This document shows positions 12,106 to 19,781 of a stretch of 33,680 nt of DNA, piece after piece. Both the position numbers and the translations under genes were made by a program. Origin of the DNA: a bacterium (GTDB taxonomy: Bacteria; Bdellovibrionota_B; Oligoflexia; Oligoflexales; CAIYRB01); contig OMIY01000383.1 of assembly GCA_900299215.1 (NCBI GenBank), forward strand, positions 1 through 33,680. Reading direction: 5' to 3'. The notes beneath the pieces were generated by a model. That model was not told the origin of the DNA and ran no database searches. It saw only the letters and a program-made list of their open reading frames with translations. How positions within the stretch are numbered: position 1 is the first letter of the stretch; each line of letters starts with the position of its first letter.

Positions 12106-13602
12106 GTGCTGAAAGATATTCTCAAAGCTAGGGTTTATGAAGTCGCCAAGCGGACACCGCTGGAGCTGGCTCCTTCACTTTCACACGAGCTTGGGCACCG
12201 GATCCACTTGAAGCGCGAAGACTTACAACCGATTTTTTCTTTCAAAATTCGGGGGGCTTACAATCGCATTGCCGCGCTTTCTCCAGCTGAACGCGAGCGG
12301 GGCGTCATCTGTGCCTCCGCCGGCAATCATGGCCAGGGCGTGGCACTCTCGGCTCAGCGCCTTGGGATTCCAGCCTGGGTGGTCATGCCTACTACGACCC
12401 CTGATATTAAAGTTCAAGCGGTGGCGCGGTTCGGAGCCAAAATAGTTTTAGCTGGTGATCACTACTCCCAAGCCTATGAACGGTCCTTACAACTGGTAGA
12501 AACGACTGGCGCCACCATGATTCATCCTTTCGATGATCCTCTAGTGATTGCGGGTCAAGGGACGATCGGCAAGGAAATTCTTGAGGATCTGCCGGAAGTT
12601 GACGCCATCTTTGTACCTGTTGGTGGTGGCGGCCTTCTTGCTGGAATCGCTGCTTATGTGAAAGCCCTTAACCCCACCGTTAAGATTTATGGCGTCGAAC
12701 CCAAAGATAGCGATGCCATGGCCCGATCTGTCGAAGCCGGCAATCGTTTGACACTTCCAGACGTAGGGATATTTGCTGATGGGGTCGCAGTTCGGCAGGT
12801 AGGAGCCCACACTTTTACCCTGAGCCAACAACTCGTCGATGGCTACATTCGGGTGACCACAGATGAGATTTGCTCGGCAATCCACGACATTTACCGTGAA
12901 ACGCGCACCCTACTGGAACCAGCAGGAGCCCTGTCCTGGGCAGGGGCGAAGAAACATCTCGCTGAGTCGCAGCAAAAAGGCCTTAATGTTGTCACCGTCA
13001 ACTCAGGTGCCAACATGAACTTCCAAAGGTTACAGTTTGTTGCTGAGAGGGCGATGACAGGTGCAGGGCTCGAGTGCCTTTATGCGGTACGTCTTGCCGA
13101 ACGCCCTGGCAGCCTTAAGGCGCTATGTTCAGACATTCTCGGCGGTCGCAGCATTACTGAGTTTAATTATCGCAAAAGCGACCCCGACGATGCATTTATT
13201 CTTCTGGGGATTGCAGCAGAAAAGCCGAGCGATCATGCTGGATTTACTGCTAAATTACGGGATAAGGGTTATTTTTTTGCTGACTTAACTGACAATGACC
13301 TAGCCAAGGAACATGTACGTCACATGGTAGGTGGTCGGGCCAAGCACGTAAGCACCGAAGAGCTCTACAGCTTTGTTTTTCCGGAGCGCCCCGGAGCATT
13401 AGCCAGTTTTTTGTCCGCCATAAGTGACGGTTGGAACATCTCTCTTTTTCACTATAGATCGCACGGAGCCGACTACGGACGGGTGCTAATTGCTTTCGAA
13501 GTAGAGAATTCGGAGCGAACCCAATTTGAGCAGCATTTAGGTGCTATTGGTTATCCTTTCAAGCGCGAAACAGATAACCCTGCATACCAATTATTGCTGT
13601 GA
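12106..13602 (+). CDS. ilvA: Threonine ammonia-lyase, biosynthetic (two C-terminal ACT-like domains)
   Basis: FSFKIRGAYNRI PLP-lysine motif, SAGNHGQGVA, VPVGGGGLLAG; C-terminal regulatory repeats (FVAERAMTG..., YSFVFPERPGAL...). GTG start. Confidence 0.93.
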   Translation: MLKDILKARVYEVAKRTPLELAPSLSHELGHRIHLKREDLQPIFSFKIRGAYNRIAALSPAERERGVICASAGNHGQGVALSAQRLGIPAWVVMPTTTPDIKVQAVARFGAKIVLAGDHYSQAYERSLQLVETTGATMIHPFDDPLVIAGQGTIGKEILEDLPEVDAIFVPVGGGGLLAGIAAYVKALNPTVKIYGVEPKDSDAMARSVEAGNRLTLPDVGIFADGVAVRQVGAHTFTLSQQLVDGYIRVTTDEICSAIHDIYRETRTLLEPAGALSWAGAKKHLAESQQKGLNVVTVNSGANMNFQRLQFVAERAMTGAGLECLYAVRLAERPGSLKALCSDILGGRSITEFNYRKSDPDDAFILLGIAAEKPSDHAGFTAKLRDKGYFFADLTDNDLAKEHVRHMVGGRAKHVSTEELYSFVFPERPGALASFLSAISDGWNISLFHYRSHGADYGRVLIAFEVENSERTQFEQHLGAIGYPFKRETDNPAYQLLL

Positions 13603-13718
13603 GCTCAGTTATGTACAAGTTTTGTAATTAGCCAGATTTTTTGTTTGCGATTATTTTCAAAAGTGCTAGGTTCCGAACGCTCGTAAGTAATTTAGGTTGT
13701 TCACCCGGACTCAGAATC

Positions 13719-13784
13719 GTGATCACTTTCCAAATTATCATTATTGCGATTATTAGCTCGATCCTCGAGAGGGACCGGACCTAG
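13719..13784 (+). CDS. Putative Ile-rich leader peptide MITFQIIIIAIISSILERDRT
   Basis: GTG ATC ACT TTC CAA ATT ATC ATT ATT GCG ATT ATT AGC TCG ATC CTC GAG AGG GAC CGG ACC TAG; 8 Ile of 21 codons, directly upstream of an intrinsic terminator and the ilv operon. Confidence 0.75.
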   Translation: MITFQIIIIAIISSILERDRT

Positions 13785-13821
13785 GAGCACACGACTGAAA
13801 GCTCACAAAACCCCGGATCCC
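13771..13821 (+). promoter_or_regulatory. Putative antiterminator stem of an ilv attenuator
   Basis: GGGACCGG (13771-13778) can pair with CCGGaTCCC (13813-13821): 8 bp with one bulged A, excluding the terminator 5' arm. Confidence 0.6.
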
Positions 13822-13841
13822 ACAAAGGTTCCGGGGTTTTT
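13807..13841 (+). terminator. Rho-independent terminator/attenuator in the ilvE leader
   Basis: AAAACCCCGGATCC-cacaaa-GGTTCCGGGGTTTT(T): 14-position stem with one T/T mismatch followed by a T run. Confidence 0.88.
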
Positions 13842-13873
13842 ACTTAGGACTAGAACTTAGAGAGACAATAACG

Positions 13874-14971
13874 ATGTCATTAGTTACGCAGGAACCGCTT
13901 GAAATCGCCCCACAACTAGCTGCGCTAGTAAACGAATTTCAACTGCCTAAACCGCTTGGGTTTGGACAAGCGATGGCTCCTATCATGGCAACCATGGATT
14001 ATTGTGATGGAGTTTGGTCAGATTTAAGCCTGAAAAAGTACGAACCGCTATCACTCGACCCCGCCTGTAAATCTTTGCATTATGGACAGCTAATTTTTGA
14101 AGGTATGAAGGCATTTCGGCTTGTCGATGGGCGAGTTGCATTATTTCGCCCCGAATTAAACAGTCGTCGCTTTAATGCCTCGGCTCGGCGTATGGCTATG
14201 CCAGAGCTTCCAGAGGAACTTTTCATGCAAGCCGTGATGAGCCTGAGCTATCACTTAAGACATGCTGTTCCAAAAGGCGACGGAGAATCCCTCTACTTGC
14301 GCCCCCTGATGCTTGCAACCGATGTTGGACTGAGCCTTAAACCGGCTTCAACCTATAAATTTTTGGTTATTGCTAGTCCCTCAGGTGCCTACTTTGCTAG
14401 CGGCAAGGTAACTGCTTTAATCGAACGCCACGATTGCCGCGCTGCACCTGGAGGTACAGGAGCATTCAAAGTTGCTGGAAATTACGGCTCAAGTATCCGC
14501 GCAGATATTAAGGCGACGAGCCTAAAGTGCCAACAAACGCTTTGGCTGGACGCAGTCGAAAAATCCTATGTTGAAGAGTTTTCGGGAATGAACTTTTTTG
14601 CGGTTATCGACGGCGAACTTTGGACGCCCCCGCTTAGTGATTCAATTCTCGGGGGTGTCACCCGAGATTCGGTCATAAAACTCGCGGAAGGTCTGGGCGT
14701 AAAGGTCCACGAGCAACCGATTCACATCGATGATTTAATTAGCGCCATCAAAGCTGGTCAATGTCGTGAACTTTTTGCCTGCGGAACGGCAGCTGTTATT
14801 TCGCCTGTCCATGCTCTTGCTGAAAGAGATGGCACCCTTCACGAGTTGACAAACTTAAAAACAGAAGAGTCCCTTAGCTTAGCATTGCGCCGTGAACTTG
14901 TTGCGGTTCAGACTGGCGCTAAATTGACGGCCGGTGATTGGGTCAAACCTGTGAGCCAAATGCCATGCTAA
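13874..14971 (+). CDS. ilvE: Branched-chain amino acid aminotransferase (type II, long form)
   Basis: LHYGQLIFEGMKAFR, GGTGAFKVAGNYG, QTLWLDAVEKSYVEEFSGMNFF motifs. Confidence 0.93.
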   Translation: MSLVTQEPLEIAPQLAALVNEFQLPKPLGFGQAMAPIMATMDYCDGVWSDLSLKKYEPLSLDPACKSLHYGQLIFEGMKAFRLVDGRVALFRPELNSRRFNASARRMAMPELPEELFMQAVMSLSYHLRHAVPKGDGESLYLRPLMLATDVGLSLKPASTYKFLVIASPSGAYFASGKVTALIERHDCRAAPGGTGAFKVAGNYGSSIRADIKATSLKCQQTLWLDAVEKSYVEEFSGMNFFAVIDGELWTPPLSDSILGGVTRDSVIKLAEGLGVKVHEQPIHIDDLISAIKAGQCRELFACGTAAVISPVHALAERDGTLHELTNLKTEESLSLALRRELVAVQTGAKLTAGDWVKPVSQMPC

Positions 14972-16710
14972 GCGGCGCGCAAATCTTAGTACGTGAACTT
15001 GAACAATTAGGTGTAACGCATATCTTTGGTTACCCTGGTGGTGCTGCTATCAACATCTTTGATGCGCTCTATGACTCTTCGATTGAGGTCGTTCTTGTGC
15101 GCCACGAACAGGGCGCAACCCACATGGCCGACGGCTACGCGCGCGCCACCGGCAAGGTTGGTGTGGTGCTGGTGACGAGTGGCCCGGGAGCCCTCAATAC
15201 CGTTACAGGGCTTTTGACAGCCAAGATGGATAGCGTTCCAATCCTCGTTATTTCCGGCCAAACGAACAGCACTAATCTCGGCAAAGACGCCTTCCAGGAG
15301 GCCGACGTTTTTGGGGCAACTCTCCCACTGGTCAAACATAATTATCTCGTACTCGACGTTGATGACATCGCTCCTACAGTGCGATTTGCATATGAACTTG
15401 CATCTAAAGGACGACCCGGACCAGTTTTGATAGACATCCCCAAGGATATTTCAGGCAAGAAAACTCGCGGAGATTACCCTGCTAAACTTGTGCCGAAGGT
15501 CGATGCAGAGGAGCCAAAATCCGGAAAACTAACCGTAGAGCAGGCGCGAGACTGTAAGAATCTTGCCGATCTCATAAAGCAAAGTAAACGCCCTCTTCTA
15601 CTTGTTGGAAATGGCGCCGTGATCGCTGGGGCTCAAAAAGAGGTACTGGAACTCGCGGAAAAACTGAGAAGCCCAGTCACCAATACGCTTCTGGGTAAAG
15701 GCGGATTTCCAGAAAGTCATCCACTGGCACTCGGTATGCTGGGGATGCACGGAACAGCCTACGCGAACTACGCCACCACGCGATGTGACTTGATTCTTTC
15801 TATAGGCTCTCGTTTCGATGATCGTATCAATGGTTGCCCTGCAGAGTTTTGCCCTAATGCGAAGATCCTGCACATTGACATCGACCCCACTGAGATCGGT
15901 CGAAGCGTTCGCACCGATGCTTCGGTAGTCGCTGATGCCCGATTGGCTGTCTTAGAGATCCTCCGTCACGCTGATCACCTGGACACAGATGAATGGCTTA
16001 GGGAACTAAAATCCTACCGAAATCAAAACCCATTGATAATTGATCACGGGGAAGGTGTGGTGGGGGGTGACTCCCACCTCTTGCGAGCAGCTCAGGTACT
16101 GACGTCGATCTATAACAGTGCACCGCGTAACGCCGTAGTCACTACCGATGTCGGACAGCATCAGATGTGGGCTGCTCAGTTCATGTTGACTGATGGTGCA
16201 CGCAATTGGCTCTCATCCGGTGGTGCAGGCACTATGGGTTTTGGTCTACCAGCTGCCATCGGTGCTCAGTTTGGACGTCCTGACGCTACTGTGATTGCCA
16301 TAGTTGGTGACGGCGGCTTTCAAATGGTACAGGCGGAACTTGCTACAGCCGCTATCCACAAGCTACCAATCAAGATCGTAATTATTGACAATCAATGTCT
16401 TGGCATGGTTCGGCAATGGCAAGAGCTTTTTTACCAGAATCGCTTAAGTAGTGTATCGCTACACGGTAATCCAGATTTCGTAAAACTTGCTGCCGCTTAT
16501 GACATCAAAGCTTTTTATGTAGATTCTACAAGCAACCTTGAGGAAGTCGTCAATGAGGCGCTTTCCTATCAGGATGGCCCTTGTTTGATCCATGCCCAAG
16601 TTCAAAACGAAGACAATGTCTGGCCGATGATCCCTGCCGGAAAATCGGCCAATGAAATGGTGTTGGCTCATCCCAAATCACAACTACCTATGCCAACAGG
16701 GAGCACTTAG
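14965..16710 (+). CDS. ilvB: Acetolactate synthase, large (catalytic) subunit
   Basis: THIFGYPGGAAINIFDALY, VRHEQGATHMADGYARATGKVGVV, GDGGFQMVQAELATA (TPP motif). ATG at 14965 overlaps the ilvE stop (ATGCTAA), better than the 14938 ORF start. Confidence 0.93.
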   Translation: MLSGAQILVRELEQLGVTHIFGYPGGAAINIFDALYDSSIEVVLVRHEQGATHMADGYARATGKVGVVLVTSGPGALNTVTGLLTAKMDSVPILVISGQTNSTNLGKDAFQEADVFGATLPLVKHNYLVLDVDDIAPTVRFAYELASKGRPGPVLIDIPKDISGKKTRGDYPAKLVPKVDAEEPKSGKLTVEQARDCKNLADLIKQSKRPLLLVGNGAVIAGAQKEVLELAEKLRSPVTNTLLGKGGFPESHPLALGMLGMHGTAYANYATTRCDLILSIGSRFDDRINGCPAEFCPNAKILHIDIDPTEIGRSVRTDASVVADARLAVLEILRHADHLDTDEWLRELKSYRNQNPLIIDHGEGVVGGDSHLLRAAQVLTSIYNSAPRNAVVTTDVGQHQMWAAQFMLTDGARNWLSSGGAGTMGFGLPAAIGAQFGRPDATVIAIVGDGGFQMVQAELATAAIHKLPIKIVIIDNQCLGMVRQWQELFYQNRLSSVSLHGNPDFVKLAAAYDIKAFYVDSTSNLEEVVNEALSYQDGPCLIHAQVQNEDNVWPMIPAGKSANEMVLAHPKSQLPMPTGST

Positions 16711-16711
16711 G

Positions 16712-17047
16712 ATGGCAAAAGCTCATAATCATGGCTTCCTTAACTGTGGCAGCGAAAGAACTAGACTGGAGCTCAAGATGCGACGGTCGCTAGGAATGAT
16801 TGCCCGCGTTGCTTTGGTCTTCTCCCGCCGTGGACTAGACATTGCTCAGTTTAAACTTGAAGAGACCAAGTCTTACAATCGGGCCACTGTCATCTTAGAC
16901 TTCGTTGGCTCGCCCGAACAGCTTAGGGCTGTTAAAGCAGACCTTACTAAACTGATTGACGTTGAATCATTGCGGGAAGTTCCAGAGGCTTCCCTAAATC
17001 ACCCATTGCCAAGTCTCACGCAGATGCAGGCTGCTCTCACATGTTAG
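16712..17047 (+). CDS. ilvN: Acetolactate synthase, small regulatory subunit (ACT domain)
   Basis: ACT-like sequence [31 protein letters not shown] at 16712 directly after the ilvB stop; operon position. Confidence 0.8.
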
Positions 17048-17055
17048 GAGAAACC

Positions 17056-18066
17056 ATGACAGCAAAGAAGTCGTTTCACGTTTATTACGAGGATGATGCT
17101 GATCTTCAGCTGATTCGCGGCAAAAAAGTCGCGATTATCGGCTACGGAAGCCAAGGACATGCACATGCTCTAAATCTTCGCGACAGCGAAGTCGATGTCG
17201 TCGTCGGTCTACCTGACGGAAGCAAGTCCAAAGCTAAAGCTGAGGCCGAAGGACTGCGAGTCATGACCCCCGCGGCTGCAGCAGCTCAAGCAAATGTGGT
17301 TATGTTGCTAGTGCCTGATGAAGTTGCTGCCAAGGTCTATCAGCAAGACATTGCACCAAACTTAAATCCTGGAGACCACCTAGTCTGCGCTCATGGTTTC
17401 AATTTTCACTTTGGCAAAATTCAAGCTCCAGCGGGCGTGAATGTGTTTCTCGTAGCGCCTAAAGGCCCCGGTCACATGGTCAGGCGTCAGTTCACTCAAG
17501 GTAAAGGGGTACCTTGTTTGGTCGCCACATTAACTAATGGCGACTCGACGGCGCTAAACTTAGCTTTGTCTTACGCCAAAGCTATAGGTGGCACTAGAGC
17601 TGGAGTCTACGAGACCACGTTTAAGGAAGAAACTGAAACCGATTTATTTGGCGAGCAAGCCGTGCTTTGTGGCGGCCTCACCAGCCTCATCCAACTGGGA
17701 TTCGAGACGCTGGTCGAAAATGGCTACAGTCCCGCCATGGCCTATTTTGAATGTGTGCACGAAATGAAGCTTATCGTCGATCTCATCTACGAGGGTGGCC
17801 TTTCGCACATGAGATCCTCTATCTCAAATACGGCGGAATACGGCGATTATGCAGTTGGTCCAAAAGTCATCGACCATACCGTACGCGAGCGTATGCAAAA
17901 AGTGCTCGAACACGTACAGAGTGGAAAGTTCGCCAACGATTGGCTTGAAGAAAACGCCAAAGGCGCAGGCCAATTCAAGGCCATGCGCGCAGCTGGTGCG
18001 AGCCATCTCATGGAGACTGTAGGTCAAGAACTCCGCTCACGCATGAGTTTTGCTAAGCCCCAGTGA
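17056..18066 (+). CDS. ilvC: Ketol-acid reductoisomerase
   Basis: [53 protein letters not shown]. Start at 17056 supported by aggag at 17046-17050. Confidence 0.95.
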
Positions 18067-19781
18067 TGTCGTTTTCTGCATTGTTTGAGAGGTCAATTGT
18101 GTCGACTAAGTTAAATCATTATAGTGCCACTATCACTCAACCGAAGGAGCATGGCGCTGCTCAGGCAATGCTTTACGCCACTGGCCTCACCCCCAAGGAT
18201 ATGGCAAAGGCACAAGTTGGGATTGTGGCTAACTGGTTTGATGGAAATCCCTGCAATATGCACCTTGGCGAGCTTGCGCAACTAACCAAGGAGGCTGTTG
18301 TTGCCAGTGGAATGATCGGCATGCGCTTTCATACCATAGGTGTCAGCGATGGCATTTCAATGGGGACGGACGGCATGAGCTATTCATTGCCATCTCGTGA
18401 CATTATCGCTGACTCAATCGAAACTGTCATGAACGCACAATGGTATGACGCCTGCATTGCCATCCCCGGCTGTGATAAGAATATGCCTGGCGCCATGATG
18501 GCAATCGGTCGCCTGAATCGCCCGGCTCTTATGATTTACGGCGGTTCAACAGCGCCAGGGTCCAGACATCCAGGCGAGAGGCTTGACGTAGTTTCAGCCT
18601 TTCAAAGCTACGGAGCCGCTATCAGCGGAGCCATTAGTGAAGACGAGAGGCAATCCATCATCCGTCATAGCTGCCCCGGAAAAGGAGCCTGCGGCGGGAT
18701 GTACACAGCCAACACCATGGCATCAGCAATTGAGGCCATGGGCATGACCCTTCCCTACTCATCTTCGACGCCAGCCGCAGATAAGCGCAAAGCACACGAA
18801 TGTCGCGAAGCAGCGTATGCCGCACGACTTCTGATGGAGCGCGACATAAAGCCTCGTGATATCATGACGCGAAAGGCATTTGAAAACGCGATTGCACTGA
18901 CTATGGCCTTGGGCGGCTCTACCAATGCAGTTTTGCATTTAATCGCAATGGCAAGAGCCGTTGACGTTGATTTATGCCTGGATGATTTTGTCCGGATCAG
19001 TCGTGAGGTTCCCTATCTTGCGGATCTAAAGCCTTCAGGCACCTTTGTCATGAACGATCTCCATGCGGTTGGTGGAACCCCAGCTGTGCTTAAACTGCTT
19101 CTACAGCACGGTTTGATTCATGGGGATATCTTGACTGTAACCGGTAAATCCTTAGCCGAGAATCTTGCCGATCTACCTGGCTTAACCACGGGGCAAGAGG
19201 TCATAAGACCTCTCGCCACCCCGCTAGCCAGCGAAGGCCATATTAAGGTTTTGCGAGGTAATTTGGCACCTGAGGGTGCCGTTGCAAAAATAACTGGTAA
19301 AGAGGGGAAAACCTTCACGGGGCCGGCACGCGTCTTTGACAGCGAAGAAGCAATGCTTGCTGCTTTATCCGCCAATCAGATTAGCCGAGGTTCTGTCGTG
19401 ATTATCCGCTACGAAGGACCCAAAGGTGGACCAGGCATGCCGGAGATGCTCACACCAACCTCAGCTATTGTTGGTGCTGGCTTAGCAAATGACGTAGCAC
19501 TACTAACTGACGGACGATTCTCCGGTGGATCACACGGATTTATAGTCGGACACATTTCACCTGAAGCGCAGGTAGGGGGCCCGATTGCCTTAGTCCATGA
19601 CGGTGACATCATCACCATCAATGCCGAGAACTTGACGATTGAGTGGCAGGTCGAAAGCGGTGTAGAAGCACGTCGACGCCAATCATGGCTTGCACCTGAG
19701 CTGAAAGTGAAATCAGGGGTTCTGTATAAATACGTAAAAGCAGTCAGCTCGGCTTCGCTTGGTTGTGTCACCGATAGATAG
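18063..19781 (+). CDS. ilvD: Dihydroxy-acid dehydratase
   Basis: [49 protein letters not shown]. Confidence 0.95.

Follow-up and report, generated by a model that had tools for sequence, protein, structure and literature searches.

The stretch of DNA analysed here (33,680 nucleotides, hereafter the window) carries a short, Ile-rich ORF and an intrinsic terminator between ilvA and ilvE, raising the question of whether the downstream ilv genes are controlled by a ribosome that reads this ORF and, if so, which residue is sensed. Judging from the sequence comparisons and folds described below, we consider it highly probable that 13719-13841 is a ribosome-mediated transcription attenuator of ilvEBNCD that responds mainly to charged tRNA-Ile. 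Such a leader belongs mechanistically to the class of the trp/his/ilv-type attenuators, and it combines a leader rich in codons for a product of the operon, an intrinsic terminator and, in silico, an antiterminator that excludes the terminator.

The leader ORF and its operon

Translation of the ORF gave 21 codons (VITFQIIIIAIISSILERDRT) with eight Ile, one Leu, two Thr and no Val besides the GTG start, in agreement with the preliminary description of this DNA, and placed the Ile control codons at 13722, 13734, 13737, 13740, 13743, 13749, 13752 and 13761. The distances reported there, 22 nt from the leader stop to the terminator stem and 89 nt to the start of ilvE (13874), were borne out by the fold and the gene starts. 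The start had been flagged as weak, and it is: the start codon is GTG, a clear Shine-Dalgarno sequence is absent, and the sole alternative in-frame start is a TTG at 13641 that adjoins the candidate promoter. The motif cccgga, which had been taken for a poor Shine-Dalgarno sequence, is better read as the 5' arm of a helix able to cover the antiterminator segment; the conservation of this helix among the leaders is not clear. Leader peptide formation without a ribosome-binding site is claimed in the title of reference 16 of PMC10272879.

Table 1 Coordinates of the leader region and the neighbouring genes in the window
Feature	Position	Strand	Basis
ilvA, threonine ammonia-lyase (first step to Ile)	12106..13602	+	NF006674/TIGR01124, above cut-off
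Candidate promoter TTGCGA-16-TAGGTT, between ilvA and leader	13645..13672	+	Elements common to window and G004
Possible region 1, CCGGACTC	13705..13712	+	Pairs with region 2 in MFE of 13700-13845
Leader ORF, GTG...TAG	13719..13784	+	Translation, conservation, shuffle test
Region 2, GGGACCGG, predicted antiterminator 5' strand, within last leader codons	13771..13778	+	Truncated-transcript folds
Stop codon of leader ORF, TAG	13782..13784	+	
Small hairpin GAGC...GCTC, between stop and terminator	13785..13804	+	Enclosed by predicted antiterminator loop
Intrinsic terminator (putative attenuator) with U run	13807..13841	+	Fold; RNAalifold
Region 3, CCCCGGATCCC	13811..13821	+	Predicted to pair alternatively with 13771-13778 (antiterminator) or 13827-13840 (terminator)
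ilvE, type II branched-chain aminotransferase, first gene under the proposed control	13874..14971	+	TIGR01123/NF009897, above cut-off
ilvB (longest ORF)	14938..16710	+	TIGR00118, above cut-off
ilvN-like single ACT-domain ORF	16652..17047	+	NF008864, sub-threshold only
ilvC	17041..18066	+	NF004017/TIGR00465, above cut-off
ilvD	18063..19781	+	NF002068/TIGR00110, above cut-off

The neighbouring genes were named by NCBIfam profiles, which agree with the operon ilvE-B-N-C-D as previously named, N being the ilvN-like ORF with its sub-threshold matches. This ORF encodes a short single-ACT protein that lies far under the acetolactate synthase small-subunit cut-offs and is conserved in the genus. The true start of ilvB is probably a little downstream of 14938. 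Immediately 5' of the leader lies ilvA, which occupies the equivalent place in four relatives of the genus (G001-G004). In a consensus promoter scan, the candidate promoter of the window and G004 did not score above chance, and a promoter better than those of the shuffles was found in G001/G003 only. As a separate observation on the assembly of the window, hisG is matched twice on separate contigs (G000:C63:180-749 and G000:C405:1837-2397) and once in each congener, possibly reflecting a strain mixture or a duplication.

Alternative pairing and the proposed switch

The fold of the leader-terminator region has a z of -3.1 for the whole region, and RNAalifold on seven leaders gave a terminator stem of 11 pairs with two-sided compensatory changes at five of them. 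The same program recovered the terminator but not the antiterminator from the leader alignment, as would be expected of a switch in which the register of the antiterminator differs between clades. Region 2 of G002 and G004 is the window-type element, and both genomes have a hairpin resembling the GAGC...GCTC hairpin of the window; in G001, G024 and G012, region 2 is shifted by ~6 nt onto the stop codon (GGACCTAGG). The pairing partners follow the clades as well: the window clade has GGGACCGG/CCGGATCCC, as against GACCTAGG with CCCGGGTC- or CCCAGGTC-type arms elsewhere. The predicted antiterminator energies of the ilvE leaders are about -14 to -18 kcal/mol, and the arm of the window clade reaches -14.0 with its own region 2 and -5.5 to -10.5 with the region 2 elements found in G001, G012 and G024; in these sequences, regions 2 and 3 change together between clades. 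For single sequences, the complementarity of regions 2 and 3 relative to dinucleotide shuffles is modest (fractions 0.0025 to 0.14).

To follow the switch in silico, transcripts ending just past the 5' arm of the terminator were folded with the ribosome stepped codon by codon, its assumed footprint being the 15 nt that begin with the A-site codon. In all leaders, regions 2 and 3 were predicted to pair while the ribosome was on the control codons, and the pairing was lost when it was at the stop. The start of region 2 lies 10-14 nt after the last Ile, Leu or Val codon that leaves region 2 free (ten leaders, two leu leaders included; codons <9 nt before region 2 are excluded from this spacing by definition), matching the leading edge of the ribosome, and in the window it lies 10 nt past the Ile codon at 13761. 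In 10/10 leaders, again including the two leu leaders, region 2 overlaps or abuts the stop or the last codons. From these folds and this spacing, we infer that region 2 would be freed by a ribosome stalled on Ile codons and hidden by a ribosome at the stop. The final position is not purely Ile, since in three leaders of the window clade a Leu codon precedes region 2 by 7 nt. The window MFE contains a 1:2 pause or protector helix, which in G024 takes the form of a hairpin and elsewhere is not clearly conserved; in the model, pairing of 13705-13712 with region 2 would favour termination when the ribosome is missing.

Sequence analysis thus establishes the ORF, the terminator, the alternative pairing, the spacing and the conservation (see below), and in the mechanism that we infer, transcription would start between ilvA and the leader ORF, translation would begin at the GTG, and the ribosome would trail the RNA polymerase across the 21 codons. 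When charged tRNA-Ile is scarce, the ribosome would stall in the Ile run at 13734-13754, or up to 13761, leaving region 2 free to pair with region 3 before the 3' arm of the terminator is made, and the polymerase would read through into ilvE. When Ile is plentiful, the ribosome would reach the last codons or the stop, on or beside region 2, and mask it, so that region 3 would pair with 13827-13840 and transcription would end at ~13841.

Conservation and related leaders

We searched the genomes of the order for IlvE and scored as a leader a short Ile/Leu/Val-rich ORF with a terminator directly before ilvE; the comparison set is small, with 63 genomes for the phylum. Leader and terminator precede ilvE directly in eight genomes from three families of the order, comprising the window, four of the five other genomes of the genus (G001-G004), and three genomes of two other families (G012 and G023 in one, G024 in another). 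The leader peptides read M(V)ITFQIIIIAIISSILERDRT in the window, M(V)RQIQIIIAIISSILPRDRN in G004, MIASNIIIISIIATILRRDRT in G002, MMPLTPANILIIAIILDPLRT in G001/G003, MFKKISNIMILIVVIIRET in G023, MLNINVIIVILIVLLVSERT in G024 and MQNIIVNIVVILVVLLSEQET in G012. The conserved Ile-rich short ORF that the preliminary description had proposed to look for in relatives is therefore there, Ile-rich in G001-G004 and Ile/Val/Leu-rich in the other families, and the differences between close relatives preserve the Ile codons (ATT/ATC swaps, TCG/TCC, CTC/CTA/CTT). Together with the terminator and an antiterminator set, in silico, by the ribosome position in every copy, this conservation supports the reading of the locus as an attenuator.

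The sole congener scored without a leader, G005, gave no match to ilvE or ilvC at the thresholds applied, and the scan detected no leader of this type in two members of the order with ilvE (G034, locus L010, and G022, locus L011). At ilvE loci of other phyla, no comparable leader was found, and one Mesonia ORF passed the crude Ile/Leu/Val filter. A covariance model built from seven of the eight ilvE leaders matched all eight with E-values of 1.9e-13 to 1.7e-17, which measure similarity and not independent detection because the sequences are those used for training or a near copy (G003). Across the 63 genomes of the phylum, the model found no further clear members; its weak matches cover mostly the terminator half, with a few over the whole length (G028, G040, G042, G045). 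One locus of G028 (L126, G028:C423, minus strand) has a diverged Ile/Val-rich leader, MIHSMLRLSIIVGISIMVRIVSSGGPL, with a terminator before ilvD-ilvC.

Leaders of this kind were also seen before leu genes. In G024, a Leu-only leader ending in QSLLLLLCLLT with a TAG stop and no Ile or Val (L148, G024:C668, 1257-1331, plus strand) precedes a leuA-like gene, after which come leuC and leuB, with a terminator and a predicted antiterminator on the ilv plan. In G012 (apparently Pseudobacteriovorax), a 41-codon Leu/Ile-rich ORF with a terminator (L145, G012:C76, 1261-1386, plus strand) precedes leuA, and its predicted antiterminator would be formed by GGGGGCCC with the 5' arm of the terminator. On the sequence evidence, the attenuator plan is shared and the residue differs, being Leu before leuA of G024, Leu/Ile before leuA of G012, and Ile/Val before ilvD-ilvC of G028. 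When the genus was scanned upstream of hisG for His-rich leaders and upstream of trpE for Trp-rich ones, nothing convincing emerged. At three loci (L177, L178, L183), a mini-frame TTG-GAT-...-TGG-TGG-AGA, ending in WW-R, precedes the trpE profile match by ~100 nt; within one family it is conserved close to the start of trpE in three genomes, and it may be a Trp-Trp leader or a coincidence.

Among known systems, the enterobacterial ilvGMEDA attenuator has the classical ilvL leader, which reads Ile, Val and Leu. By description, the window shares with it a leader ORF rich in branched-chain amino acid (BCAA) codons and an antiterminator/terminator switch before an ilv operon, and differs from it in reading mainly Ile, in having region 2 within the last leader codons, and in the order ilvA-leader-ilvE-B-N-C-D. 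Short BCAA-rich uORFs also precede ilv genes in the Corynebacterium ilvB-II motif/ilvBNC attenuator (PMC10272879, PMC11857589); the likeness extends to the terminator and the antiterminator, and the differences are the phylum, the gene order and the mixed BCAA codons there. The ilvB-OMG motif and the Leptospira ilvB motif are proposed attenuators with BCAA/Thr-rich uORFs before ilvB, and the BCAA-uORF mechanism has been suggested to be widespread (PMC10272879). Neither of these two motifs gave an Rfam match at gathering or relaxed thresholds, their models being possibly absent from the Rfam copy used. The window leader matched no Rfam family at the gathering threshold, and the Rfam search of the relatives' leaders gave no leader family match. 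Its best relaxed match, Thr_leader (RF00506), is a weak whole-length alignment over leader and terminator at 18.9 bits (gathering threshold 55, E = 0.25), and membership was rejected; the control codons of the window are Ile, not Thr.

Alternative explanations and the residue sensed

The ilvA-ilvE spacer is 58% A+T and the ORF starts at GTG with no Shine-Dalgarno sequence, as could be expected of a chance Ile-rich ORF beside a simple ilvA terminator. Among 20,000 dinucleotide-shuffled versions of the spacer, scored by the Ile count within 11 codons of short ORFs, none reached at least six and 0.2% reached five, as compared with seven in the real leader, which also ranks top in Ile density among the 878 short ORFs of the window; with a leader conserved over three families, we regard chance as a negligible explanation. 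As a short, hydrophobic peptide with a conserved ORF, the leader product might instead be a small protein that acts in trans, perhaps in the membrane, next to an ordinary ilvA terminator. Against this, Ile, Val and Leu interchange freely between families, the C-terminal codons also serve as an RNA pairing element linked to the terminator, the ORF is seen before BCAA genes only, and in G012, G023 and G024 the leader has no ilvA directly upstream, making a protein role very improbable.

A closer competitor is a general BCAA attenuator, in which the Ile excess of the genus would be drift and a shortage of Ile, Val or Leu would still be sensed. The leaders of G012, G023 and G024 are indeed mixtures of Ile, Val and Leu, those of G001/G003 retain four Leu codons beside five Ile, and in the window a single Leu codon lies close to region 2. 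However, the five leaders of the genus contain no Val codon although the operon makes Val, the conserved codons are the Ile ones, and a stall at the lone Leu codon of the window would cover region 2; we thus judge general BCAA sensing unlikely for the genus. Mostly-Ile sensing, as proposed in the preliminary description, stands only for the window and the genomes closest to it; outside the genus, the leaders are mixed. The leaders of the window, G002 and G004 have seven or eight Ile, one Leu and no Val.

The Ile bias of the ilv leader in the genus coincides with an apparently missing leucine pathway. LeuA and LeuB profiles have strong matches in G012, G023 and G024, which possess LeuA, LeuB and LeuC, and weak, partial or no matches in the genus. 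LeuC was not found by profile search in the genome of the window, G002 or G004 (assemblies 91-96% complete), and the LeuC/LeuD homologue of G001 sits in an apparent degradation cluster. At this locus (L158, G001:C47, 3148-5192), the LeuC/LeuD homologues lie near maleate-isomerase-like, isochorismatase-like and CoA-transferase-like genes (assigned by eye), and are probably catabolic rather than devoted to leucine synthesis. Because LeuA and LeuB are weak or absent and LeuC is either not found or in such a cluster, the genus probably cannot synthesize leucine. The simple idea that Leu codons were lost since leucine synthesis was lost is only partly right, as G001/G003 keep their four Leu codons and G023 has one; the missing Val is the cleaner difference between the genus and the others. 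We tentatively suggest that the codons of one homologous ilv attenuator were retuned to the remaining pathways, mixed where leucine is synthesized, and Ile-dominated and devoid of Val where LeuA/LeuB were not found, a possibility that we put somewhat short of even. This link between codons and pathway is a hypothesis since it relies on one evolutionary contrast and on incomplete assemblies (91-96%).

Returning to the Ile-reading attenuator as a whole, it is very probably a new example of a well-known device, the classical ribosome-driven attenuator. We found no report of such a leader for this lineage and none on leader peptides and attenuation in Bdellovibrio, which is weak evidence of novelty as most subscription journals lay outside the search. 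The leader would be a short gene missed by standard annotation that adds a regulator of the entire operon, and leader-peptide attenuation, well supported by comparison, would be extended to a lineage of the Oligoflexia type (Bdellovibrionota). With eight homologous ilv leaders whose sensed residues appear to vary between genera alongside leucine synthesis, the change of specificity is directly testable, and the retuning, if true, would have left a natural record of how sensor specificity tracks pathway loss.
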